Shown here in pieces: positions 1 through 35,864 of a stretch of DNA of 64,000 bases. Under the pieces are notes generated by a model that ran no database searches, was not told the origin of the DNA, and saw only the letters and a program-made list of their open reading frames with translations. Both the position numbers and the translations under genes were made by a program. Origin of the DNA: Calditrichota bacterium (GTDB lineage: Bacteria > Zhuqueibacterota > Zhuqueibacteria > Zhuqueibacterales > Geothermadaptataceae); assembly GCA_008501765.1 (NCBI GenBank), contig QQUE01000003.1:62001-126000 (forward strand), in the 5' to 3' direction. Numbering within the stretch: the stretch's first letter is position 1; each line of letters opens with the position of its first letter.

Positions 1-801
1 GTAATCAACGGTGTGCAACTTGATGGCACCCGTTATCCATGCTGGAATCCGGTATTGTTTCAGCCGGAAGACCAGCCACTGATGCTTTTTTACAAGGTTG
101 GCCCCAATCCACGTGAATGGTGGGGCATGGTCATGAGCTCGGATGATGGCGGTAAAACCTGGTCGGAACCAGAGCAATTGGCTGATGGAATTTTAGGACC
201 AATTAAAAATAAGCCGATACAATTGGCAAACGGCGATTTGCTCAGCCCGACAAGCACGGAGCACGATGGCTGGAAAGTGCAGATTGAGCGCAGCTCGGAT
301 TTGGGAATATCCTGGTCGACGACGGGTGATTTAAATGACGGTAAAAAAATTGGCGCAATTCAACCAACTATATTATCTTATGCCGACAATCGGTTGCAAT
401 TGCTTTGCAGAACCGAAAATGGCTTTATTTCCGAGTGTTGGTCAGAGAATGATGGTGAAACCTGGGGGCCGATGACTGCCATGGATTTGCCAAATCCGAA
501 TTCGGGGATCGATGGTGTGACGCTCAGTGACGGACGGCAACTGCTCATTTACAATCCAACGGGCGGCAAGTGGGGAGCGCGTGTGCCGCTTACTGTTGCT
601 GTTTCAGAAGATGGAAAAAAATGGACGCCGCTTTTCGATCTCGAGCCTGTCACCGATCCAAATACCGTCGATGATGAAGAATACTCTTATCCGAGTATTA
701 TCCAAACGGCTGACGAGCAAATTCATGTGGTTTACACGTGGAACCGGAAATCTGTGCGGCACGTTGTGCTGGATCCGCGGAAATTGAACTCAAAAGAATA
801 G
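1..801 (+). CDS. Sialidase-fold (BNR/Asp-box) protein, 5' end outside window
   Basis: The reading frame is open from base 1, so the N-terminus is missing; 266 residues are visible. Four Asp-box-like motifs (S-x-D-x-G-x-T-W and variants) occur at regular spacing: SSDDGGKTW, SSDLGISW, SENDGETW and SEDGKKW. This is the signature of six-bladed sialidase/neuraminidase propellers. Proteins of this type cleave terminal sialic acids or related sugars, or simply bind glycans; the substrate cannot be told from this fragment. The next gene, a SIS-domain isomerase, follows after 113 bases on the same strand. A second, distantly similar sialidase-fold lipoprotein lies at 8409-9557. Family assignment is firm; enzymatic activity is inferred. 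Confidence 0.85.
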   Translation, partial: VINGVQLDGTRYPCWNPVLFQPEDQPLMLFYKVGPNPREWWGMVMSSDDGGKTWSEPEQLADGILGPIKNKPIQLANGDLLSPTSTEHDGWKVQIERSSDLGISWSTTGDLNDGKKIGAIQPTILSYADNRLQLLCRTENGFISECWSENDGETWGPMTAMDLPNPNSGIDGVTLSDGRQLLIYNPTGGKWGARVPLTVAVSEDGKKWTPLFDLEPVTDPNTVDDEEYSYPSIIQTADEQIHVVYTWNRKSVRHVVLDPRKLNSKE

Positions 802-914
802 CACATCTGATAATTTCACGGATTATACGTGATTTTATTCCACTTAAAATCGTACCCGTTTGCGTGATCGTTCTCGGACTTGAAGAGCGATTTATGCACA
901 CGCAGGAGAATTTA

Positions 915-1574
915 ATGAGCATATTAACACAAATTGAAAATGACATTTTGCAAGAAATGCTGCAGCGCCGGCCTGATTTAACTGAGGCTGTTCCTGCTCT
1001 CCTGCAGCTCCACGAAGCGCTTGTTACCAGCTATGATTCCGGCGGGAAATTGCTCCTTTGCGGCAATGGCGGTAGCCATGCGGATGCCGTGCATATAGCC
1101 GGCGAGCTGGCAAAAAGTTTTGAGCGCTTGCGTCCTGTCCCGGATGATTTTCGCCAAAAATTAGGTGGTTTGCCCTTCGGAGATGATTTGGCGAATCACC
1201 TGGAAGTCGGCCTGCCGGCCATCGCTTTGGGCGTCGGTGGGGCTTTAAAGACAGCGATCGAAAATGATTCTCCCATGCGGGATATCGCCTTTGCGCAGGA
1301 GGCTTATTCTCTTATAAAAAAAGAAGATGTGCTCCTCGGAATTTCAACCTCCGGCAATGCAGATAATTGCCTGATGGCGCTTTCTGTGGCAAAAGCAAGC
1401 GGGGCTGTGGCTGTTTCTTTAACAGGCCCGGTTGGCGGCAAAATGGCTGCCTTTGCAGATGTCGCCATCAAAGCACCGGGAAATTCTGTGAAGGTCATTC
1501 AGGAAGCGCATCTGGTGCTGTATCATACAACTTGTGCGCTCATTGAAGCGCATTATTTTGAAAATAAACGATAA
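915..1574 (+). CDS. SIS-domain sugar-phosphate isomerase (GmhA/phosphoheptose isomerase type)
   Basis: A 219-residue cytoplasmic protein of the SIS superfamily, closest in pattern to sedoheptulose-7-phosphate isomerase GmhA. CGNGGSHADA (49-58) and STSGN (144-148) are the sugar-phosphate-binding loops. E64 and the QEAH segment (196-199) match the catalytic Glu and His region of GmhA. Compared with E. coli GmhA there is an insertion of about 20 residues after the first motif (about 70-100), so the substrate may differ. I chose ATG 915 because AGGAGA at 904-909 precedes it with good spacing; in-frame ATG 894 lacks such a site. No other heptose-biosynthesis gene is nearby, and the carbohydrate-catabolic context leaves a catabolic phosphosugar isomerase possible. 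Confidence 0.85.
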   Translation: MSILTQIENDILQEMLQRRPDLTEAVPALLQLHEALVTSYDSGGKLLLCGNGGSHADAVHIAGELAKSFERLRPVPDDFRQKLGGLPFGDDLANHLEVGLPAIALGVGGALKTAIENDSPMRDIAFAQEAYSLIKKEDVLLGISTSGNADNCLMALSVAKASGAVAVSLTGPVGGKMAAFADVAIKAPGNSVKVIQEAHLVLYHTTCALIEAHYFENKR

Positions 1575-23093: not shown

Positions 23094-25070
23094 ATGATTA
23101 AAAGAATAATTATTTTGATTTTGAGTTCAATATTAATTCAATGCAATTCCGAAAAAAACAGTGGAAAGAATTACGCAATCCAACCAATCAAATTTTCAGA
23201 AGTAGAGATAACTGATAATTTTTGGGCACACAGAATTGAAACCAACCGCAAAGTCACCATCCCGTTTGATATTAAAAAGAGCGAAGAAACTGGGCGCATT
23301 AATAATTTTGCCATTGCGGCTGGATTGAAAAAGGGCGCCTTCGAAGGCATCCGTTACAATGACTCGGATGTTTATAAAATAATGGAAGGCATTGCCTATT
23401 CACTAAGCGGCCACCCAGATCCACGGCTGGAAAAATACATGGATGATTTAATCGAAATCATCGCCGCTGCGCAGGAAGATGACGGCTATTTGTACACGCA
23501 GCGCACAATCGACAGCACAATAATGGAGAAGAATGCGGGAGATAAACGCTGGTCATATTTGCCACATAGCCACGAACTTTACAACGTCGGGCATATGTAT
23601 GAAGCTGCGGTGGCCTGGTTCGATGCTACTGGCAAAAGATCCCTGCTCGATGTGGCTATAAAAAATGCCGATTTCTTGCTCACAGTTTTCGGACCGGGTA
23701 AAAAACACGACATCCCAGGGCATCAGGAAATCGAAATTGGGCTTGCCAAACTTTACCGTGTAACCGGAAAAAAAGAATACCTCGATCTGGCAAAATTCTT
23801 CCTCGACGAGCGCGGAAATGCTACCCACCGTGAGCTTTACGGCGACTATTGCCAGGATCACAAACCAGTCATAGAGCAGACGAATGCAGTTGGCCACGCC
23901 GTACGGGCGCTTTACATGTATTCCGGAATGGCGGATGTAGCGGCGCTGACAGGAGATGCAGCCTATATTCGCGCCCTCGACCGTATCTGGCAAAATATGG
24001 TTATGAAGCGAATGTATGTGACCGGGGGTGTCGGCGCCCGCCGCAGTGGTGAGGCATTTGGCGATGATTATGAATTGCCCAACGACACGGCGTACAACGA
24101 GACATGCGCGGCCATCGCGAATATGATGTGGAACCACCGTCTTTTTCTATTGCACGGACATGCCAAATACTTCGATGTGCTGGAGCGTACTTTGTATAAT
24201 GGATATTTGGTGGGCACTTCGCTGGAAGGCAATCTGTTCTTTTACCCGAATCCATTGCATTCAGATGGAAAAACAGCATTTAATCGCGGGACAGCCGAAC
24301 GACAGCCATGGTTCGATTGTTCCTGTTGTCCGGTCAACGTCGTGCGCACGATGCCAGCGATTCCGGGCTATATTTATGCACAAAATGATCAGTCCATTTT
24401 CATCAATTTATTTATCAGCAGCAATGTGCGGATGAAAATTAGCGGAAATAATGTGGCAATCCAGCAAAAGAGCGATTATCCATGGAACGGCGACATAGAA
24501 ATTACCGTTGACCCAGAAAAAACAAGTGAATTCGAATTAAAAATTCGCATTCCAGTCTGGGCGAGAGGCAATCCTGTTCCAGGTGATTTGTATACATTTT
24601 TAAATGAAAAATCCGAACAGGTCACCCTTCAAATAAATGGAACCGATTTCCCATTGCAACTCAATGAAGGATACGCCATCGTACATCGAAAATGGCAAAA
24701 ACGAGACCGAGTGAAATTGATCCTGCCAATGCCAGTCCAGCGGATTTTAGCGCATGAAAATGTTACTGCAGACAGATGGAAAATGGCTCTACAGCGCGGC
24801 CCGGTTGTGTATTGTGTCGAAGGTGCAGATAATGATGGTCAGGTTTTAAATATGAGTCTCGCTGATGAAACGACTTTTCAAATCAAATTTGAAAAAGAGA
24901 AACTCGGCGGCATCGTTGAGCTTATTGGTGAAGCGATTTCTTTTGATGGGAAATCGAAACAGAGCAAAAATATAACAGCTATTCCCTATTTTGCCTGGAA
25001 TCACCGGGGTCCAAATGAGATGCGGGTCTGGATTCCACGAATAATGACCATTGTGGATCAGGAGAATTAA
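23094..25070 (+). CDS. GH127-family beta-L-arabinofuranosidase-like lipoprotein
   Basis: A 658-residue protein with a lipoprotein signal (LIQCNS, Cys17). The central (alpha/alpha)6 barrel and C-terminal beta domains follow the DUF1680/GH127 pattern. The zinc/cysteine-nucleophile centre is intact: Glu336 and Cys338 (NETC), Cys411 and Cys412 (CSCCPVN), equivalent to E338, C340, C417 and C418 of Bifidobacterium HypBA1. It should cleave terminal beta-L-arabinofuranose from plant-type glycans. GGCAGGAG lies just before ATG 23094. The stop codon abuts the start of a UroD fragment. Confidence 0.92.
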   Translation: MIKRIIILILSSILIQCNSEKNSGKNYAIQPIKFSEVEITDNFWAHRIETNRKVTIPFDIKKSEETGRINNFAIAAGLKKGAFEGIRYNDSDVYKIMEGIAYSLSGHPDPRLEKYMDDLIEIIAAAQEDDGYLYTQRTIDSTIMEKNAGDKRWSYLPHSHELYNVGHMYEAAVAWFDATGKRSLLDVAIKNADFLLTVFGPGKKHDIPGHQEIEIGLAKLYRVTGKKEYLDLAKFFLDERGNATHRELYGDYCQDHKPVIEQTNAVGHAVRALYMYSGMADVAALTGDAAYIRALDRIWQNMVMKRMYVTGGVGARRSGEAFGDDYELPNDTAYNETCAAIANMMWNHRLFLLHGHAKYFDVLERTLYNGYLVGTSLEGNLFFYPNPLHSDGKTAFNRGTAERQPWFDCSCCPVNVVRTMPAIPGYIYAQNDQSIFINLFISSNVRMKISGNNVAIQQKSDYPWNGDIEITVDPEKTSEFELKIRIPVWARGNPVPGDLYTFLNEKSEQVTLQINGTDFPLQLNEGYAIVHRKWQKRDRVKLILPMPVQRILAHENVTADRWKMALQRGPVVYCVEGADNDGQVLNMSLADETTFQIKFEKEKLGGIVELIGEAISFDGKSKQSKNITAIPYFAWNHRGPNEMRVWIPRIMTIVDQEN

Positions 25071-25328
25071 ATGGCAATTCAATCAGATCAATTGGTTAGC
25101 TACATTGCTCCAGCAGCACCGGCTACGCGTAGGCCGGGGAATGGCAACGAGCCATTTATTCGTCCGAAAATTGGTTTTACGCCAAAATGGTATCGACATG
25201 CTCCAGGTATTAATTTTGACGAAAAATGGCATACAGACCCGGCTTTTCGACGGGAAACAATCTTACGCATGCGAGTTTTAGATTTTATTAATAGTTGTGA
25301 TGAAATCAGCCGGGCAGAGGGGAAATAG
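25071..25328 (+). pseudogene. N-terminal fragment of a uroporphyrinogen-decarboxylase-like gene
   Basis: An 85-codon frame starting directly after the GH127 stop, with GGAG at 25061-25064. TRRPGNGNEPFIRPKIGFTP and WHTDPAFRRETILRMR are characteristic of the N-terminus of UroD-like proteins of carbohydrate loci. Similarity ends near codon 65 and a TAG closes the frame, against about 370 residues in intact relatives. It could still be translated as a short peptide. Confidence 0.65.
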
Positions 25329-25460
25329 CCAGAAATATTTTTTTGCAGATTGACTTGGTTTTTTGTTTTGGTTGAACAAACGAAGCTTATTTTCATAGTG
25401 TTAATTCGCTCTACTTGTTTTGAATCGCAGTGTTTATCCTATTAACGGGAGATGCTAAAA

Positions 25461-28400
25461 ATGAAAATCTATTTTGTTGCAAGTCTATTCGTATTTATCG
25501 GTATTTGTACTGCAGTAGCTCGAACAAACGAAAACAACAGGAAGACAATGATTCATTCGATGGAACAACTGCAATCCCTTTTCAAAACCCCACCCGTTGC
25601 ATATCGCAGTGCCCCGCTTTGGGTGTGGAATGATGAAATGACCGAAGATCAGATCGATCAACAATTGCAGGACTTTAAATCGGCCGGAATTGGCGGCGTT
25701 TTCATCCACCCGCGACCGGGATTGATTACAGCCTATTTGTCCGACAAGTGGTTTTCTTTGTGCAAATACACGGTTCAAAAAGGAAAAGAAATGGGGATGA
25801 ATGTATGGCTGTACGATGAAAATTCTTATCCAAGTGGATTTGCCGGCGGCCACGTTCCGGCGGAGATGCCTGAATCGTACAACCAGGGGCAGGGATTGAC
25901 GCTTCAACGCATTGGACAACTGCCTGCAGATGCAGATAAATCTTTTATCGTTTTGAGGAAACAGGATTCGAAATTTATCGATATCACCGATAAACTGGAC
26001 CACCATAAAAACAGCACAGGCGATTTTTTTCTTTATCAAAAGAGCTATTATAAAAATATGCCATGGCACGGGGGCTACTCTTATGTGGATTTATTGGTCG
26101 ATGGGGTGACGGAAAAATTTATCGAAGTGACAATGACCGGCTATGAAAAATCCATCGGCAGCGAGTTTGGCAAAACGGTTCCGGGCATCTTTACCGATGA
26201 ACCCAATATTTCCTCCCCGGGTGGCCTCCGTTGGACACCGGCACTTTTTCCGGAATTCGAAAAACGCTGGGGATATGATCTCAAAACCAATCTTCCGTCA
26301 CTTGCCTACGAAATTGGCGACTGGAAACAGGTGCGCCACAATTATTACACAACATTGCTCGAATTGTTTATCGAAAAGTGGAGCAAACCCTGGTTTAAAT
26401 ATTGCGAACAGAACAATATGGACTGGACAGGGCATTATTGGGAACACGGCTGGCCAAATCCGCACCATGGCGGCGACAATATGGCTATGTACGCCTGGCA
26501 TCAAATGCCGGCCATCGACATTTTGATGAATCAGTACAGTGAAAAAGTAAACGCGCAGTTTGGCAACGTGCGGGCAGTTAAGGAGCTAAGCAGTGTTGCC
26601 AACCAGATGGGGCGGCAGCGCACTTTGAGCGAGACCTACGGCGCCGGCGGCTGGGAATTGAGCTTCGAAGATATGAAGCGAATCGGGGACTGGCAGTATG
26701 TTCTCGGTGTTAATTTTCTCAACCAGCATCTGTCTTATGTGACGATCGAAGGCGCCCGAAAACGGGACCATCCGCAGTCATTTTCCTATCACGCACCGTG
26801 GTGGAAAAATTATAAACCATTGGGCGACTATTTTGCCCGCTTGTCTCTGGCACTTTCAGCGGGAAAACAGGTGAACCGAATTCTGGTATTTGAACCCACG
26901 TCAACAGCATGGATGTATTTTTCAGATGTGCAGTCCCACAAAAATTTTTCTGCACTGGGCCCACAATTTCAAGAATTTGTTTTGAGCCTGGAGAAAAATC
27001 AGATAGAATATGACCTGGCTTCAGAAAATATTGTCAAAGATATCGGGAAAATCAGCGGAAAAGAATTTATCGTGGGAGAACGTGCTTATGACACAATCAT
27101 TTTCCCGCCGGGCATGGAAAATCTTGATAAATCCACGTTCAACCTGGTTAAAACGTATTTACAGCAAGGCGGAAAATTGTTCTCATTTTCTGATATCCCA
27201 AGGTTTGTCGATGGCCGGGAATCAGATGAATTAAAAGCAATTGTTGATGAGTATTCAACACAGTGGACCCGAGTCAATTCAGTCCACGATCCACAATTGC
27301 TGCAACGGCTTGCCTCTGATAAAATTCAGTTTCATCAGCCTGAACAAGTCGGAGGAACTTTTTATCATCACCGTCGTGAATTGGCCAATGGGCAGGTGCT
27401 CTTTCTGACAAACACCAGTCAGGATAAATGGGCAACAGGTTCGCTGGATATGAGGGGAAAATCTGTTTCCGAACTCGATTTATTGACAGGTGTCACGAAA
27501 CCGTATTTTAGCACAGCAATGGACGGTTTTCTTAAAATATCGTTTGATTTGCCGCCTTGTGGCAGCGTGCTGCTTTTAGTCAGCGACTCAATAGCAAAAA
27601 CAACAACTGAAAATCAGCCGGGCAAAATAAATATAATTCCGCCGTTAAACACGGTGCAAATAAGTAAAACTTCACCCAACGTTCTAACGCTGGATTATTG
27701 CGATTTACAAATGGGCGGCATGCTTGAAAAAGACGTCTACTTTTTTAAAGCAGCCGATAAAATTTTCAAGCATCACGGATTTGCCGGCAATCCGTGGAGT
27801 CGGGCTGTGCAGTACAAATCTGCCATCGTTGACCGCGATACATTCGCGGTTGGTTCCGGATTTGAAGTTACCTATTCATTTCAAATTGACGGTGATGTTG
27901 AGCGCTCGAAATTACAAGCTGTGATTGAACATCCGGATTTGTGGCAGGTTTCGATTAAAGGAAAAATCGTTAAACAGAATTCAGCACAATTTTGGCTCGA
28001 TCGAAAGTTTGGTGTTTACAATATTGGCAGCCATGCTATTGCTGGGAAAAATCATGTCAAGCTCGTCGCCTCACCGATGTCAGTGCACTCCGAAGTTGAA
28101 GCCATCTATATTTTGGGTGATTTTAATCTGAAACCACTGGAAAAAGGATGGAAACTCAGCAAAGCGCAAAGGTTAAATTTGGGAAGCTGGCGCGGGCAGG
28201 GGCTGCCATTTTATTCTGACCGGGTCAATTATTCGAAATCCTACGCCATCAAAAAATCGGACAAGCGATTTGTGGTGAAACTAACTGACTGGCGCGGCAG
28301 TGTTGCAGAAGTCCTGATTAATGATAAATCTGCCGGAATTATTGCCTGGCCGCCTTATGAGCTTGACGTCACGGACAACCTTGCTAATGGCGAAAATGAA

Positions 28401-29294
28401 GTTGTGGTTGTTGTTACGGGAACCTTGAAAAACTTGTTAGGTCCGCACCACATTGGCCCTGTTCGCGGAACAGCATGGCCGGCCTCTTTCGAGTCTGCCC
28501 ACGAAAATATGCCGGCAGGCAATGAATATGATTTCATCGACTATGGATTGTTCGAAGATTTCGTGCTTCTTGAATCGGATGGCCCTGTGCAAAAAGTATA
28601 CTGGCGAATTGAGCAGGCAGCCAGCCCTGTTTTTGGTACTATGGACACAGTTAGTATAAATTCTCCGGTACGCGTTTCAATTTCCTCGGCTACGCCCGAG
28701 GCAGATATCCGATATACGCTGGACGGTAGTGCGCCAAATAAGACATCCAAAATATATACTGGCCCATTTACCTTGAAACAAAGTGCAGCCGTAAAAGTTT
28801 GTGCATTTAAAGATGGATTAAAACCGAGCTCAGTAGTGGAGCGTAATATCTATATCGTTAGCGAAAAAACGGGCCTTGTGTTCCGGTATTTTGAAGGGAA
28901 TTGGGAAAAATTGCCTGAATTTGAATCCCTCTCGCCGCTGAAAAAGGGACGTATTTATGATTTCAATTTGGCTAGTTTGCCAAGACGGGCATCTAATTTT
29001 GCAGTTGAATTCAGCGGATTTTTAAAGATTGAAAAAGCTGGTGAATATAGATTTTATACCAATTCCAATGATGGCAGCCGGCTCTTTATAGGCGAAAAAA
29101 TTGTGGTAGATAACGATGGTTTGCATGGCAATTTTGAGCGGCAGGGGAGAATAAATCTCAAATCAGGATTGCATCCCATTAAAGTGCAATATTTTGACGG
29201 CGGCGGGAGCCAGGCATTGCGGGTGCTTTACAAAGGACCGGGCATTGCGCGGCAAGTCATTCCGGTGGATAAATTAAGGTTCTCCGATGAATAA
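25461..29294 (+). CDS. GH106-like alpha-L-rhamnosidase with HEX and PA14 modules
   Basis: A 1277-residue exported protein (signal peptide about 1-20). The catalytic region has the GH106-type opening: APLWVWNDEMT, GIGGVFIHPRPGL, then MNVWLYDENSYPSGFAGG. The GH106 family hydrolyses terminal alpha-L-rhamnose. A chitobiase/HEX C-terminal-type domain (about 1062-1135, RYTLDGSAPN) and a PA14 domain (about 1138-1277, YRFYTNSNDGSRLFI) follow; both are non-catalytic and probably bind carbohydrate. ATG 25461 is preferred to 25452 because GGGAG at 25447-25451 then has correct spacing. With the GH127 gene upstream it suggests attack on a rhamnose- and arabinose-bearing polymer such as rhamnogalacturonan. 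Confidence 0.85.
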   Translation: MKIYFVASLFVFIGICTAVARTNENNRKTMIHSMEQLQSLFKTPPVAYRSAPLWVWNDEMTEDQIDQQLQDFKSAGIGGVFIHPRPGLITAYLSDKWFSLCKYTVQKGKEMGMNVWLYDENSYPSGFAGGHVPAEMPESYNQGQGLTLQRIGQLPADADKSFIVLRKQDSKFIDITDKLDHHKNSTGDFFLYQKSYYKNMPWHGGYSYVDLLVDGVTEKFIEVTMTGYEKSIGSEFGKTVPGIFTDEPNISSPGGLRWTPALFPEFEKRWGYDLKTNLPSLAYEIGDWKQVRHNYYTTLLELFIEKWSKPWFKYCEQNNMDWTGHYWEHGWPNPHHGGDNMAMYAWHQMPAIDILMNQYSEKVNAQFGNVRAVKELSSVANQMGRQRTLSETYGAGGWELSFEDMKRIGDWQYVLGVNFLNQHLSYVTIEGARKRDHPQSFSYHAPWWKNYKPLGDYFARLSLALSAGKQVNRILVFEPTSTAWMYFSDVQSHKNFSALGPQFQEFVLSLEKNQIEYDLASENIVKDIGKISGKEFIVGERAYDTIIFPPGMENLDKSTFNLVKTYLQQGGKLFSFSDIPRFVDGRESDELKAIVDEYSTQWTRVNSVHDPQLLQRLASDKIQFHQPEQVGGTFYHHRRELANGQVLFLTNTSQDKWATGSLDMRGKSVSELDLLTGVTKPYFSTAMDGFLKISFDLPPCGSVLLLVSDSIAKTTTENQPGKINIIPPLNTVQISKTSPNVLTLDYCDLQMGGMLEKDVYFFKAADKIFKHHGFAGNPWSRAVQYKSAIVDRDTFAVGSGFEVTYSFQIDGDVERSKLQAVIEHPDLWQVSIKGKIVKQNSAQFWLDRKFGVYNIGSHAIAGKNHVKLVASPMSVHSEVEAIYILGDFNLKPLEKGWKLSKAQRLNLGSWRGQGLPFYSDRVNYSKSYAIKKSDKRFVVKLTDWRGSVAEVLINDKSAGIIAWPPYELDVTDNLANGENEVVVVVTGTLKNLLGPHHIGPVRGTAWPASFESAHENMPAGNEYDFIDYGLFEDFVLLESDGPVQKVYWRIEQAASPVFGTMDTVSINSPVRVSISSATPEADIRYTLDGSAPNKTSKIYTGPFTLKQSAAVKVCAFKDGLKPSSVVERNIYIVSEKTGLVFRYFEGNWEKLPEFESLSPLKKGRIYDFNLASLPRRASNFAVEFSGFLKIEKAGEYRFYTNSNDGSRLFIGEKIVVDNDGLHGNFERQGRINLKSGLHPIKVQYFDGGGSQALRVLYKGPGIARQVIPVDKLRFSDE

Positions 29295-29855: not shown

Positions 29856-30659
29856 GTGAAACTACTTGATCAAACACGGCAGCTTTTTGAACATTTAAAG
29901 AAGAGGTTGCTTTCAATGAAATTACCCTGGAAAAAACTGCCTGAGCAAATCCGGCGATTGGCGGTTGTGAGCTTATTTCTTGTCGTCCTCCCTTTTATAG
30001 TGCGGTCTATTTTAGTGCCCTCCGATTTTGGAAAATACGGCCACTATCGCGCCTCGGCTGTTGATGAAATAATTGCAATGGAAATTAAGTATGCCGGTCA
30101 TCAAGTCTGTTACGACTGCCACGATGAAGAGGTTGAAAGCAAACAAGCAGGTGTGCACAAAAATGTGTCCTGCGAAATATGTCACGGCCCTGCAGCCGCG
30201 CATTCCGAAGATGATGAAATTGAACTTATTGCCCCACGAGACCGGGATTCCTGTCCCTTGTGTCATGAATATCTTTCATCCCGGCCAACGGGATTTCCGC
30301 AGATTGTGTCAGATTCGCACGAACCCATGAAAGCGTGCATCAGTTGTCACGATCCCCATAATCCTAAATCTGAAAAATCTACGGAATGCGAAGCATGTCA
30401 TACGGAAATTGCGAATACGAAATCACTCTCGAAGCATGTAAATATCGCATGCAAAGAATGCCATGAGACTCCTGATGCGCATAAAACCCAGCCAAGAATG
30501 TTTTTACCAGGCAAACCTGTGAATCGAGAATTTTGTGGCCGCTGTCATGCGGAAACTGCACCTAGCGATAAAGATATACCACGCATCGAAATGGAAACGC
30601 ATGAAGAAGCTTACGTTTGCTGGCAATGTCATTATCCCCATTTACCGGAGGCCGAATAA
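29856..30659 (+). CDS. Membrane-anchored octahaem c-type cytochrome
   Basis: A 267-residue protein with one N-terminal transmembrane anchor (about 35-53) and eight CxxCH haem-binding motifs, at Cys85, 106, 133, 161, 178, 199, 227 and 255. The rest should lie in the periplasm. Spacing resembles cytochrome c3/NapC-NrfB-like electron carriers, not an octahaem nitrite or hydroxylamine enzyme (no CxxCK). GTG 29856 is supported by AAAGGA at 29844-29849. Its stop overlaps the next gene's start by one base. It likely passes electrons between the quinone-linked partners downstream and periplasmic acceptors or donors. Confidence 0.88.
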   Translation: MKLLDQTRQLFEHLKKRLLSMKLPWKKLPEQIRRLAVVSLFLVVLPFIVRSILVPSDFGKYGHYRASAVDEIIAMEIKYAGHQVCYDCHDEEVESKQAGVHKNVSCEICHGPAAAHSEDDEIELIAPRDRDSCPLCHEYLSSRPTGFPQIVSDSHEPMKACISCHDPHNPKSEKSTECEACHTEIANTKSLSKHVNIACKECHETPDAHKTQPRMFLPGKPVNREFCGRCHAETAPSDKDIPRIEMETHEEAYVCWQCHYPHLPEAE

Positions 30660-31459
30660 TGAAAAAAAATCTGCCAAATAAATCTCAAAACGTGAATAGA
30701 AGAAAATTTATCAAAAATCTTGTGCTCGCTGTTACAGCATTCTCGGTACCTGCAGTTCTCACTGCAAAAGAACAATTAAAACGCATGCAATCCTGGATTT
30801 TAGGCAAAGACTATAATCCATTTGATCACTATTGGGGGATGGGAATCGATATTAACAAGTGCATCGGCTGTGGCCGCTGTGCTGATGCTTGCAAACAGGA
30901 AAATGATGTTCCTTCCGAACCTTTTTTCTTTCGCACTTGGGTTGAACGCTATCGCATTTTTCATGACGGGGAAGTGAGAGTAGATAGTCCCAATGGAGCC
31001 GTTGATGGATTTAAAAAACAGAATATCGAAAAAGGAAAAGTAACGATTCGAAGTTTTTTTGTACCCAAAATTTGCAACCACTGTGATAATCCACCCTGTG
31101 TTCAAGTCTGTCCAGTCGGGGCAACTTTTATAACTCCTGATGGGGTTGTTCTTGTCGATTCCGATTATTGCATCGGCTGCCGTTACTGTATTCAGGCTTG
31201 CCCTTACGGTGCACGATATATCGATCCTATAAAGAAAACAGCAGAAAAATGTACATTTTGCTATCACCGGGTTGTGCAAGGTTTAGTACCTGCATGTGTC
31301 GAAGTCTGCCCGACCCAGGCACGGGTGTTCGGTGAAGTCAAGAAAAAAGCCAGTCCTTTAGTCAGGTTTATGCGCATGAATAAAATCGGTGTATTAAAAC
31401 CCGCGTTGAATACTGAACCCAAAGTATATTATGCGAATCTTGATATGGAGGTAAATTAA
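30659..31459 (+). CDS. Tat-exported four-cluster [4Fe-4S] ferredoxin-like subunit (DsrO/HybA/NrfC type)
   Basis: A 266-residue protein. A twin-arginine signal (NRRKFIKN, Arg14-Arg15, then a hydrophobic stretch) sends it folded to the periplasm. Sixteen cysteines form four cluster sets: 68/71/74/78, 139/142/147/151, 171/174/177/181 and 198/201/213/217. This is the electron-wire subunit of complex iron-sulfur molybdoenzyme-type systems and of DsrMKJOP. ATG 30659 overlaps the upstream stop, with GGAGG at 30647-30651. The next gene, an NrfD-type protein, starts three bases after its stop; the usual Fe-S/NrfD pair is therefore complete. Confidence 0.92.
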   Translation: MKKNLPNKSQNVNRRKFIKNLVLAVTAFSVPAVLTAKEQLKRMQSWILGKDYNPFDHYWGMGIDINKCIGCGRCADACKQENDVPSEPFFFRTWVERYRIFHDGEVRVDSPNGAVDGFKKQNIEKGKVTIRSFFVPKICNHCDNPPCVQVCPVGATFITPDGVVLVDSDYCIGCRYCIQACPYGARYIDPIKKTAEKCTFCYHRVVQGLVPACVEVCPTQARVFGEVKKKASPLVRFMRMNKIGVLKPALNTEPKVYYANLDMEVN

Positions 31460-31461
31460 TT

Positions 31462-32673
31462 TTGGAAGAGATTATCCAACATCTGACGCCGCTTTTCAAA
31501 GAAATCAGCGGTTACATATATCCGAATGAAATCGAACTCCATTGGAGCCTTTTGGTGGTGATTTATCCTTATTTAACAGGATTGGTCGCAGGTGCTTTTA
31601 TTTTGGCATCTCTGGTGAAAGTATTTAATGTCACGGCCCTGAAACCTGTTTATCGTATTTCATTGCTTACCGCGCTGGCATTTATGCTGGTCGCGCCACT
31701 TTCCCTTTTGGCCCACCTTGGGCATCCGGAAAAATCTTATGAAATCCTGCTAACGCCCAATCTAACCTCAGCTATGGCCATGTTCGGATTTGTTTATATG
31801 TGGTATTTGATGGCTGTGCTTTTACAGGAAATTTGGTTTGATTATAGAAAAGATCTCATTTTGTGGGCACAAAAGGAAAGAGGAATTAAAAAATGGCTGT
31901 ACAAATGTGCTTCTCTTTTCTCCAAGGACATCTCTGAAAAAGCCTTGAAATTTGATGATAAAGCTGAAAAAGTTATCACAATACTCGGTATCCCTTCGGC
32001 ATTTGTGCTGCACGGCTATGTCGGTTTTATTTTTGGGTCGGTTAAAGCCAATCCGTTTTGGTCAAGCGTTCTTATGCCGATCGTATTTTTGTTTTCAGCA
32101 ATCGTTTCCGGGATCGCTCTTGTATTGTTGATTTACATGGTGGTTACCCCCCTGCGAAATAAAGTTATGGATACAAAATGCCTCGATACATTGGCCAGTT
32201 TTTTGTTCTATGCCATGATTGTCGATTTTTCACTTGAGATATTGGATTTCATCCACAGAATTTATGAATCCGAGGAGTCGATTCATATTCTTTCAGAACT
32301 GGTGGCGGGGAAGCTGCAATTCAGTCTCATAGTTGTGCAGTTAATTATCGGCATGATTATCCCACTCGCGTTGATCGCCGGTGTAAAAATGTTTAATACA
32401 CCAGTGGAATTAAAAAGATTGCTCTATTTTGTTTCTGCATTGCTGGTCCAAGTGGGCATCTTTTTTACCCGCTGGAATGTTGTTATTGGCGGGCAGCTTT
32501 TTTCGAAAAGTTTCCGCGGGCTAACAGCTTACAAAATGAATATATTAGGAATTGAAGGACTTTTGGTTTCTATTGCTATTCTCCTGTTGCCGTTTTTAAT
32601 TTTGTATGTCCTGTTCAAGTTTCTCCCTCCATGGGGTGAAACCCATGTTACAACTCAACCAGAATCTTCATAA
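31462..32673 (+). CDS. NrfD/PsrC-family quinol-interacting membrane subunit
   Basis: A 403-residue integral membrane protein with about nine or ten hydrophobic segments and a charged loop of about 50 residues near 130-175. The topology and the LAHLGHPEKS motif between early helices are those of NrfD/PsrC/DsrP, which oxidise or reduce menaquinone and exchange electrons with the partner iron-sulfur subunit. TTG 31462 is assigned because GGAGG at 31447-31451 precedes it and the protein begins in the expected place. It is the last gene of the operon; no catalytic molybdopterin subunit or maturation gene follows. Confidence 0.88.
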   Translation: MEEIIQHLTPLFKEISGYIYPNEIELHWSLLVVIYPYLTGLVAGAFILASLVKVFNVTALKPVYRISLLTALAFMLVAPLSLLAHLGHPEKSYEILLTPNLTSAMAMFGFVYMWYLMAVLLQEIWFDYRKDLILWAQKERGIKKWLYKCASLFSKDISEKALKFDDKAEKVITILGIPSAFVLHGYVGFIFGSVKANPFWSSVLMPIVFLFSAIVSGIALVLLIYMVVTPLRNKVMDTKCLDTLASFLFYAMIVDFSLEILDFIHRIYESEESIHILSELVAGKLQFSLIVVQLIIGMIIPLALIAGVKMFNTPVELKRLLYFVSALLVQVGIFFTRWNVVIGGQLFSKSFRGLTAYKMNILGIEGLLVSIAILLLPFLILYVLFKFLPPWGETHVTTQPESS

Positions 32674-33071: not shown

Positions 33072-35864
33072 ATGAAAAAATACCAGATTCACGTAATTTC
33101 CAATACACACTGGGACCGCGAGTGGCTCTACAATTTCCAGGAAACGCGCTTGATGCTGGTGGAAATGATGGATGGTTTGCTTGATATTCTCGAAAAAGAA
33201 CCGGAGTACAAATCGTATGTCCTCGATTCACAAACGGTGTTATTGGAAGATTATTTGGAATTGCGGCCTGAAAATAAAGAGCGTCTGAAAAAACAGGTTG
33301 AATCCGGCCGATTGCTCATCGGGCCATGGTACAGCGCACCGGAAAGTTTTTCAGTCAATGGCGAAAGTCTTGCACGAAATCTGCTCATGGGACATCGTAT
33401 CGCCCGGGAATTTGGCGCGGTTATGAAAGTCGGTTACACGCCTTTCGGCTACGGACAAAACAGCCAGATGCCACAACTCTATCAGGGATTTGACATCGAG
33501 AGCATGCTTTTTTACCATGGCGTATCGCATGATGAAGTGAAAAACGAGTTTATTTTTGCGGGTGCTGACGGCACACAAATTTTAGGCTCACAGATGAGTT
33601 CGGGGGCGCGCTATTGTTTTTATCACAATGTGTACCGACCCGTTGTTTGTGGCAAATCGATCAAAGAACGTGAATTCCAATGGAAAGAGGGCGGCATGCC
33701 TTTTCGGTTGGCAGATGTGGCAAGGAACCGCGATCACCATCGATTAATTCAGCCTGAATTCCAATTCGACGAAGACAAACTCAAAAGGTGCGTCCGCAAT
33801 TTGATGGAAGATGAAAAAAATGTTGCCACAACGCGATTTCTCACTTTTATGAGTGGCCATGACAGCAGCATTGCAGATTCCGTTGAACTCAAGCTTATAA
33901 ATAGCGCAAAAAAACACCTGCCGGATGCTGAAATTTTTCACAGCAGCCTGCCGGAATTGATGGATAAAATTAAAAGTGAAGCGCGAAATTTAACAATTTT
34001 AACCGGGGAGCGCCGAACACCAAAATTGATGAATGGCCGGGTTCACTTGTACAGTGACGTGCTTTCGAGCCGGACGCGCATGAAAATGCAGAACGCGCGC
34101 GCGGAATACAATCTTCAACGTGTGGCGGAACCACTTGCCGTTATCGCAAATATGCTTGGCTATGAATTTCCAGCATCGGCAATAGAATATGCCTGGAAAT
34201 CGTTGCTCAAATGCCACGCTCACGACAGCATCGCCGGCAGCGGCGTCGATGATATTGAGCGTGATATGATGAACCGGCTGCAACAGGTGAATAATTTATG
34301 CGATAGCCTGACCCGTCGAAGCCTTGAAAAAATTCAGTTATCAATCGATATGTCTGGCGTGGCGAAAGACGCGGTGATTCTTACAATTTATAATCCATCT
34401 CCTTTTCAACGTTCTGAAGTCATTTCGGCTGTGCTGGATATTCCTGCTGATCCTTCGATGACCGCATTCTCTCTTAAAAAAATACAGAATGACGAGCCAG
34501 TTGCTGTGCAAATTTGTGCTCGAAAACCACACAAAGCTGTGATAAATCAACCTTCAGATGCAACATTGATGATGGACACCGAGCAGGTCTTATTTCATTT
34601 TTTAGCAGATGAAATTCCTTCAATGGGATATTCCACATTTTACTTGAATTCGACGGAGCACCCAAAACGGGGCGGTCTTGTCTGTGGCCAGAACGCGATG
34701 GAAAATGAATTTTTGCATGTGCAGATTAATCCAAACGGCACGCTTCGAATTAAGAATAAGGAAACAGGACATATTTTTGATAATCTGCATTATTTTGAAG
34801 ATAGCGGTGATGCGGGCCATGCCTGGATGTTCATCGAACCTGCGATGAATCAGATCATCAATACTTTGGGACAACCGGTGATTATTTCTCTGGAAGAAAA
34901 TGGGCCATTATTGGCGCGTTTTCAGGTGATTTATTCGTTGCAAATTCCTGTAAGTATTGATTATAACGAAAGTGATAAATGGCAAAGTCTCGATGGCGCC
35001 GGTGGCCACGCGAAGCGCAGCAACCATACTTGTGAAATGAAAATAATTTCGCAGTTCACCTTGCGAAAAGGCAGCCGCGTTGTCGAAGTAAAAACCTCAT
35101 TTGAAAATAATGCCGAAAATCACCGCCTGCGCGTGATGTTTCCAACCGGTCTTGAATCTGCAAAAACATGCCATGTTGAGACTGCTTTTGATGTCGTTGA
35201 GCGGGAAGTCGTTATGCCACCCGACAGCCCGTGGTTTGGTGGTGAAAATGCCACCTTCCCGATGCAGCGTTTCGTGGACGTGCACGACGAAGAAAACGGT
35301 TTGGCGATAATAAACAACGGTTTGCTGGAATACCAGGTCACCGATGATTCGGAGCGCACGATTGCACTTACCCTGTTGCGGGCTTACGAAGTCAATTTAA
35401 CGACGGTGAGTTGGCGCTGGGAATCTCATCCCGAAATGAAAGGCTCGCAATGCCTGGGGTTTCATGAATTTGCGTACAATATTTATCCTCATGCAAAATC
35501 CTGGTCCGAGGTCAAAGTAGTGCAGCAAGCAGAGAAACTAAGCGTGCCGTTGCTGCCTGTTCAAAGTGGTACTGGTACCGCCGGGACTTTGTCCCCAAAT
35601 TTTAGTTTTTTGAAAATCGCGCCAGCTGAACTAATTTTGAGTGCGCTGAAACAGGCCGAGGATGGCGAAGGAATTGTCATTCGTATTTTTAATCCCACTG
35701 AAAAAGATTGTGCGGGGAAAATCAGGCTGTTTAAAGAGCCCATTGCGGCGGAGATAGTCAATCTGGAAGAAACATTTCAGGCCGTACTGCCGGTTAAAAA
35801 TAACATTATTTCAGTTCCTTGCGCGGCGAAAAAAATTGTGACCGTCAAGTTCAAAATATCCTGA
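33072..35864 (+). CDS. GH38 alpha-mannosidase-family protein lacking the catalytic Asp
   Basis: A 930-residue protein without signal peptide, so cytoplasmic. The N-terminal GH38 domain starts with SNTHWDREW (zinc ligands His13, Asp15) and includes CHAHDSIAGS (His382 region); the C-terminal beta domains (about 420-930) follow the usual order. The family nucleophile and zinc ligand normally sits in P-D-x-F-G-x-x-x-Q-M-P. Here that segment reads PFGYGQNSQMP, with Phe125 where Asp is expected. Either the enzyme is inactive, uses another residue, or has a different reaction. ATG 33072 is preferred to ATG 33021 because homology starts at MKKYQIHVIS. Confidence 0.85.
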   Translation: MKKYQIHVISNTHWDREWLYNFQETRLMLVEMMDGLLDILEKEPEYKSYVLDSQTVLLEDYLELRPENKERLKKQVESGRLLIGPWYSAPESFSVNGESLARNLLMGHRIAREFGAVMKVGYTPFGYGQNSQMPQLYQGFDIESMLFYHGVSHDEVKNEFIFAGADGTQILGSQMSSGARYCFYHNVYRPVVCGKSIKEREFQWKEGGMPFRLADVARNRDHHRLIQPEFQFDEDKLKRCVRNLMEDEKNVATTRFLTFMSGHDSSIADSVELKLINSAKKHLPDAEIFHSSLPELMDKIKSEARNLTILTGERRTPKLMNGRVHLYSDVLSSRTRMKMQNARAEYNLQRVAEPLAVIANMLGYEFPASAIEYAWKSLLKCHAHDSIAGSGVDDIERDMMNRLQQVNNLCDSLTRRSLEKIQLSIDMSGVAKDAVILTIYNPSPFQRSEVISAVLDIPADPSMTAFSLKKIQNDEPVAVQICARKPHKAVINQPSDATLMMDTEQVLFHFLADEIPSMGYSTFYLNSTEHPKRGGLVCGQNAMENEFLHVQINPNGTLRIKNKETGHIFDNLHYFEDSGDAGHAWMFIEPAMNQIINTLGQPVIISLEENGPLLARFQVIYSLQIPVSIDYNESDKWQSLDGAGGHAKRSNHTCEMKIISQFTLRKGSRVVEVKTSFENNAENHRLRVMFPTGLESAKTCHVETAFDVVEREVVMPPDSPWFGGENATFPMQRFVDVHDEENGLAIINNGLLEYQVTDDSERTIALTLLRAYEVNLTTVSWRWESHPEMKGSQCLGFHEFAYNIYPHAKSWSEVKVVQQAEKLSVPLLPVQSGTGTAGTLSPNFSFLKIAPAELILSALKQAEDGEGIVIRIFNPTEKDCAGKIRLFKEPIAAEIVNLEETFQAVLPVKNNIISVPCAAKKIVTVKFKIS

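Follow-up and report, generated by a model that had tools for sequence, protein, structure and literature searches.

In the GH38 enzyme of Streptococcus pyogenes (SpGH38; 2wyh/2wyi), zinc is bound by H13, D15, D125 and H351, and D232 serves as acid/base (PMC2815779). Asp125 has a double role as nucleophile and zinc ligand; it is supported by R149 and Y192, and a bound sugar analogue is contacted by Y574 and D352 (PMC2815779). One catalytic residue is enough for an inverting phosphorylase, and a 2022 review of these enzymes names no GH38 member (PMC8950772). Within GH130, phosphorylases and hydrolases can be told apart by basic phosphate-binding residues in the former and carboxylates in the latter (PMC4599007).

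The window examined here, a stretch of 64,000 nucleotides of Calditrichota DNA, encodes a GH38-like protein that departs from this description at the nucleophile. Its open reading frame starts with ATG and has no internal stop codons, and the protein begins MKKYQIHVISNTHWDREW. The four-domain GH38 architecture (PF01074, PF09261, PF07748 and PF17677) is recognized with every domain scoring above its Pfam cut-off. An AF2 model (pLDDT 89.4, falling to about 67 near residues 121-130) matches 2wyh with a VIA Z of 41.6 and an rmsd of 2.1 over 854 aligned residues at 26% identity, which corresponds to a full-length GH38 fold. The nearest ortholog is 73% identical; against it pN/pS is 0.23, synonymous sites being saturated, so that purifying selection appears to act on the gene. 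A preliminary description had called the protein full length, intact and under selection and had proposed a profile check against PF01074; these results bear it out. A pseudogene or an assembly error is ruled out by the intact reading frame, the pN/pS value and the occurrence of the same change throughout a clade (see below).

The same description reported that the zinc-ligand segments are kept and that phenylalanine stands at the catalytic aspartate. Both observations hold. Searches with phmmer align GYTPFGYGQNSQMPQ of the window protein to GYFPDTFGNMGQTPQ without gaps in 3lvt, 5kbp and 2wyh, placing Phe125 at the nucleophile, and positions 13, 15 and 125 carry identical numbers in SpGH38 and the window protein. 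An alternative GMII-type register, with Thr123 at the D of D-P-F-G, had also been offered, but it needs a two-residue shift ahead of the common Q-M-P and finds no support in an alignment of 98 sequences. The window protein therefore lacks the aspartate that serves retaining GH38 α-mannosidases as nucleophile and fourth zinc ligand, and it retains their acid/base and remaining zinc ligands (Table 1).

Table 1. Features of the GH38-like gene and a related gene in the window
Feature	Position	Strand	Basis
GH38-like protein (930 aa) lacking the catalytic Asp	33072..35864	+	ORF, Pfam, AF2 model, structure match to 2wyh
H13-W14-D15, with zinc ligands His13 and Asp15 both kept	33108..33116	+	SpGH38 alignment; invariant in alignment
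Phe125 codon (ttc), at nucleophile and zinc-ligand Asp site	33444..33446	+	Alignment to solved structures, clade alignment
Clade-specific insertion, ~residues 178-203, predicted helix 179-193	33603..33680	+	Alignment, AF2; borders vary with alignment
Arg180, inside the insertion at predicted helix start	33609..33611 (codon)	+	Invariant in clade
Residue 212 (Arg in the window protein), basic throughout the clade (65/65)	33705..33707	+	Alignment
Asp264, kept general acid/base (= SpGH38 D232)	33861..33863	+	Alignment
His384-Asp385, kept third zinc ligand and adjoining Asp (= SpGH38 H351-D352)	34221..34226	+	Alignment
Trp585, replaces near-invariant Tyr of canonical GH38	34824..34826	+	Alignment
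GmhA-like SIS protein, downstream of the paralog's GH38/HAD operon, whose end precedes the window	738..1574	+	

Relatives gathered from 99 genomes and 80 GTDB loci yielded 98 aligned proteins, in which site 125 is Phe in 57, Asp in 32, Thr in 8 and Ser in 1. The 65 Phe/Thr proteins form one clade (SH-aLRT 99 in a 98-sequence tree from a quick search without bootstrapping); the Ser protein and a single Asp protein branch near its base. According to record titles, the clade covers about 15 phyla, among them Calditrichota, Ignavibacteriota, Bacillota, Verrucomicrobiota and Armatimonadota. Clade, fold and residue pattern together establish the window protein as part of a monophyletic GH38 offshoot that has lost the nucleophile; it is a member of a widespread group, not a lone degenerate copy. 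Most members have almost no residues ahead of the barrel and no hydrophobic leader-like segment, and so are probably cytosolic. The Thr-type members (GYTPTSYGQLSQIAQ) adjoin a DUF4185 protein in each of the seven loci L015-L020 and L051.

Gains and losses were scored in an L-INS-i alignment, the 65 Phe/Thr proteins against the 32 of Asp type. Asp125 is the sole acid that is universal in the Asp-type proteins and fully missing from the clade. No Asp or Glu position has been gained across the 65 members, so the earlier suggestion that another acidic residue takes its place is unsupported. The zinc ligands H13, D15 and H384 are invariant in these divergent proteins and the acid/base D264 is kept. 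What the clade gains instead are Arg180 and a basic residue 212 (each 65/65), both missing or gapped in Asp-type proteins, along with Tyr137 and Gln129 (each 64/65); residue 149, His in the window protein, is R, H or K throughout. His11 is mostly lost. The Tyr found at 585 in 31 of the 32 Asp-type proteins, taken from the alignment as the equivalent of SpGH38 Y574, is Trp in 63 of the 65 clade members. The equivalent of SpGH38 Y192 is column 181 or column 205, according to which alignment is used, and Tyr is conserved in the clade at neither. With these losses and gains the active site is remodelled around the retained zinc triad and acid/base, and the best explanation is an offshoot that was re-tooled rather than inactivated.

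Clustering of flanking genes finds HAD-superfamily proteins adjoining Phe-type genes only; none was found beside Thr-type genes. When only loci whose flanks exceed 3 kb are counted, 20 of 39 Phe-type cases have a HAD gene at a distance of 1.5 kb or less, compared with 0 of 20 Asp-type cases (Fisher p 3e-5, a value that ignores relatedness). Likewise, Pfam HAD_2 is assigned to 15/75 immediate neighbours on the Phe side versus 0/31 on the Asp side, where GH125 α-mannosidase accounts for 4/31. About half of the clade loci have no HAD neighbour.

Three HAD groups can be recognized. Group A (12 loci) spans both major subclades, group B (12 loci) occurs mainly in Ignavibacteriota and Bacteroidota, and group C belongs to Calditrichota and kin. 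Groups A and B resemble β-phosphoglucomutases: the best PDB matches of their joint profile are TM_1254 and β-phosphoglucomutases. A single HAD protein gave no PDB match by phmmer, and HAD-A scores 31.1 bits on the β-phosphoglucomutase model TIGR01990, below its cut-off of 189.4. HAD-C is less β-phosphoglucomutase-like and may be a phosphatase. It is present in 20 of 22 genomes that carry the clade versus 10 of 77 that do not. HAD-A was found in only 3 of the 99 related genomes searched, so it is not what usually accompanies the GH38 gene in the window's class. A HAD-C domain is also fused to a PfkB kinase, with no GH38 gene nearby, in some relatives (L123:2996-4909, L127:6812-8809). In the cultured species Faecalicatena orotica, one gene run (L090:7636-13864) carries HAD-A together with two GH38 genes, one of Phe type and the other very divergent.

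At its own locus, the window gene lacks a HAD neighbour. Such genes do lie beside its paralog and beside two relatives of the same class (G042 and G035), in which HAD-C is 4 bp from a GH38 gene whose product is 50% and 47% identical, respectively, to the window protein. PF01074 identifies three GH38 genes in the window genome: the window gene, one distant gene and a 42%-identical paralog that ends about 0.6 kb ahead of the window start. The paralog closes a run of genes for LacI, an SSS symporter, a DHDPS-type protein, an HldE-like transferase and kinase, and a HAD protein. Window-type and paralog-type genes share one cluster in another genome (G056). Proteins of ~366-410 residues with weak deoxyhypusine-synthase or ArgZ-like matches adjoin paralog-type GH38 genes or the HAD-C gene (L132:9705-10802, L137:6528-7709, L122:7233-8405, L045:4878-6107) and are a possible further partner.

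Elsewhere in the clade, Ignavibacteriota clusters place the GH38 gene near a GH94 phosphorylase, a PGM-type mutase and NanE, and one Thr-type gene adjoins GH65 (L073). HldE/GmhA-like genes lie near some members, and the transporters identified are of SSS and ABC types. Directly 5' of the window gene (29856-32673) are genes for a multihaem cytochrome, a 4Fe-4S protein and an NrfD-like membrane protein; no functional link between these and the GH38 gene was found, and the nearest ortholog is preceded by 1.5 kb of sequence that does not resemble the window. Farther upstream, genes for a GH127 enzyme and, after it, a GH106-like protein bearing a PA14 domain (23094-29294) probably constitute a glycan-degradation cluster.

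Replacement of Asp by Phe and the frequent presence of a sugar-phosphate-enzyme neighbour suggest that clade enzymes may cleave with phosphate rather than water. Our preferred reading, a tentative one, is that the window protein is a cytosolic inverting glycoside phosphorylase acting on an α-manno-configured glycoside, with phosphate replacing the lost Asp. The proposal rests on a combination familiar from inverting phosphorylases: a carboxylate lost, basic residues gained, one acid kept and a sugar-phosphate enzyme paired. The GH94, PGM-type mutase, NanE and GH65 neighbours and the absence of a leader-like segment in most members point the same way. By sequence, D264 would be the one catalytic acid, with no carboxylate left or gained to act as base or nucleophile, and the invariant Arg180 and basic 212 are candidate parts of a phosphate site. 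In the scheme that we infer for the activity, substrate, phosphate binding, phosphate step and stereochemistry of these enzymes, as well as for the role of the HAD protein, Asp264 would protonate the leaving group while zinc, coordinated by His13, Asp15 and His384, grips the sugar at O2/O3. Inorganic phosphate, bound by Arg180, basic 149 and possibly 212, would attack C1 from the face formerly occupied by Asp, and the adjacent HAD would convert or dephosphorylate the resulting β-sugar 1-phosphate. Counting against phosphorolysis are the bulky Phe at the presumed phosphate entry, which is not obviously helpful, the loci without a HAD neighbour, the window copy included, and the possible phosphatase nature of HAD-C, which is the HAD type associated with relatives of the window protein.

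The foremost alternative, which we consider unlikely, is an inverting hydrolase in which water, activated by zinc or by an already conserved residue, attacks directly. The acid/base is kept, and since the lost Asp is also a zinc ligand, the metal site may be free for water. A switch from retaining to inverting hydrolysis has a parallel in GH97, whose retaining and inverting members differ at the nucleophile position; however, the GH97 inverters have a dedicated conserved Glu base (PMC2670981), and the present clade gains no acid. Direct water attack also leaves the invariant Arg180 and the sugar-phosphate gene neighbours unexplained. The invariant Arg180 and basic 212 would suit a glycosidase for phosphorylated or otherwise anionic sugars, in which they contact the charged group of the substrate and the HAD is a phosphatase, which HAD-C resembles more than it does a mutase; HldE/GmhA-like neighbours fit as well. 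That reading is distinctly improbable, since a replacement nucleophile would still be required and the nearby transporters are not PTS systems.

The geometry of α-ManNAc permits a substrate-assisted route, in which the axial 2-acetamido group, trans to the α leaving group, replaces Asp through an oxazoline. NanE in five clade loci and an N-acylglucosamine 2-epimerase in another (L056) agree with such an α-N-acetylmannosaminidase, but these genes are confined to a few subgroups and the mechanism requires neither the new Arg nor a HAD, making it a poor prospect for the clade. Least probable is a non-catalytic sugar-binding or regulatory protein, which would suit the loss of the nucleophile in every member but not the full fold, the location among catabolic genes and transporters, or the invariance of acid/base and three zinc ligands in 65 divergent proteins. 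For the roles first envisaged (another chemistry, binding, or another acidic residue), another chemistry is accordingly the best supported, and pure binding, though conceivable, is less likely because of that conservation.

Searches of open-access journal papers turned up neither a GH38 clade without the nucleophile nor any phosphorylase that belongs to GH38 or acts on α-mannosides, and the Phe/Thr clade is provisionally regarded as undescribed. Homology easily labels its proteins α-mannosidase or mannosylglycerate hydrolase, and the known GH38 retaining mechanism is impossible for them. Large and broadly distributed, the clade also has members in cultured species, such as the homolog of Ruminiclostridium cellobioparum subsp. 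termitidis (L074:9974-12787), and it represents a natural departure from a retaining mechanism for which the candidate residues are clear. It might, we suggest with reserve, comprise the first GH38-fold phosphorylases and the first inverting phosphorylases of α-mannosides or α-N-acetylmannosaminides, derived from a retaining hydrolase in which a phosphate site took the place of the nucleophile; the product released would be a β-manno-configured sugar 1-phosphate. If phosphorolytic, these enzymes would fill the α-mannoside gap among phosphorylase specificities and provide a tool for making α-mannosides.

Compared with SpGH38, the window protein shares the fold, domains, three zinc ligands, acid/base Asp and adjoining Asp. 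It differs in Asp125 to Phe, in the presumed Y574 equivalent to Trp, in the unconserved, alignment-dependent Y192 and in the extra ~25-residue insertion with Arg180. The only curated NCBIfam model that it matches is that of the MngB family (mannosylglycerate hydrolase, NF007331), at 516.9 bits, far under the equivalog cut-off of 1138, and MngB of E. coli keeps the Asp that is Phe125 here. GH97 is alike in being one family with and without a nucleophile Asp, differing in the Glu base of its inverters. A functional likeness is proposed to the inverting phosphorylases of GH130 and GH65, whose folds are unrelated to GH38: one acid, attack by phosphate, basic residues in place of a carboxylate, a cytosolic location and, for GH65, a β-sugar 1-phosphate product like that proposed for this clade.
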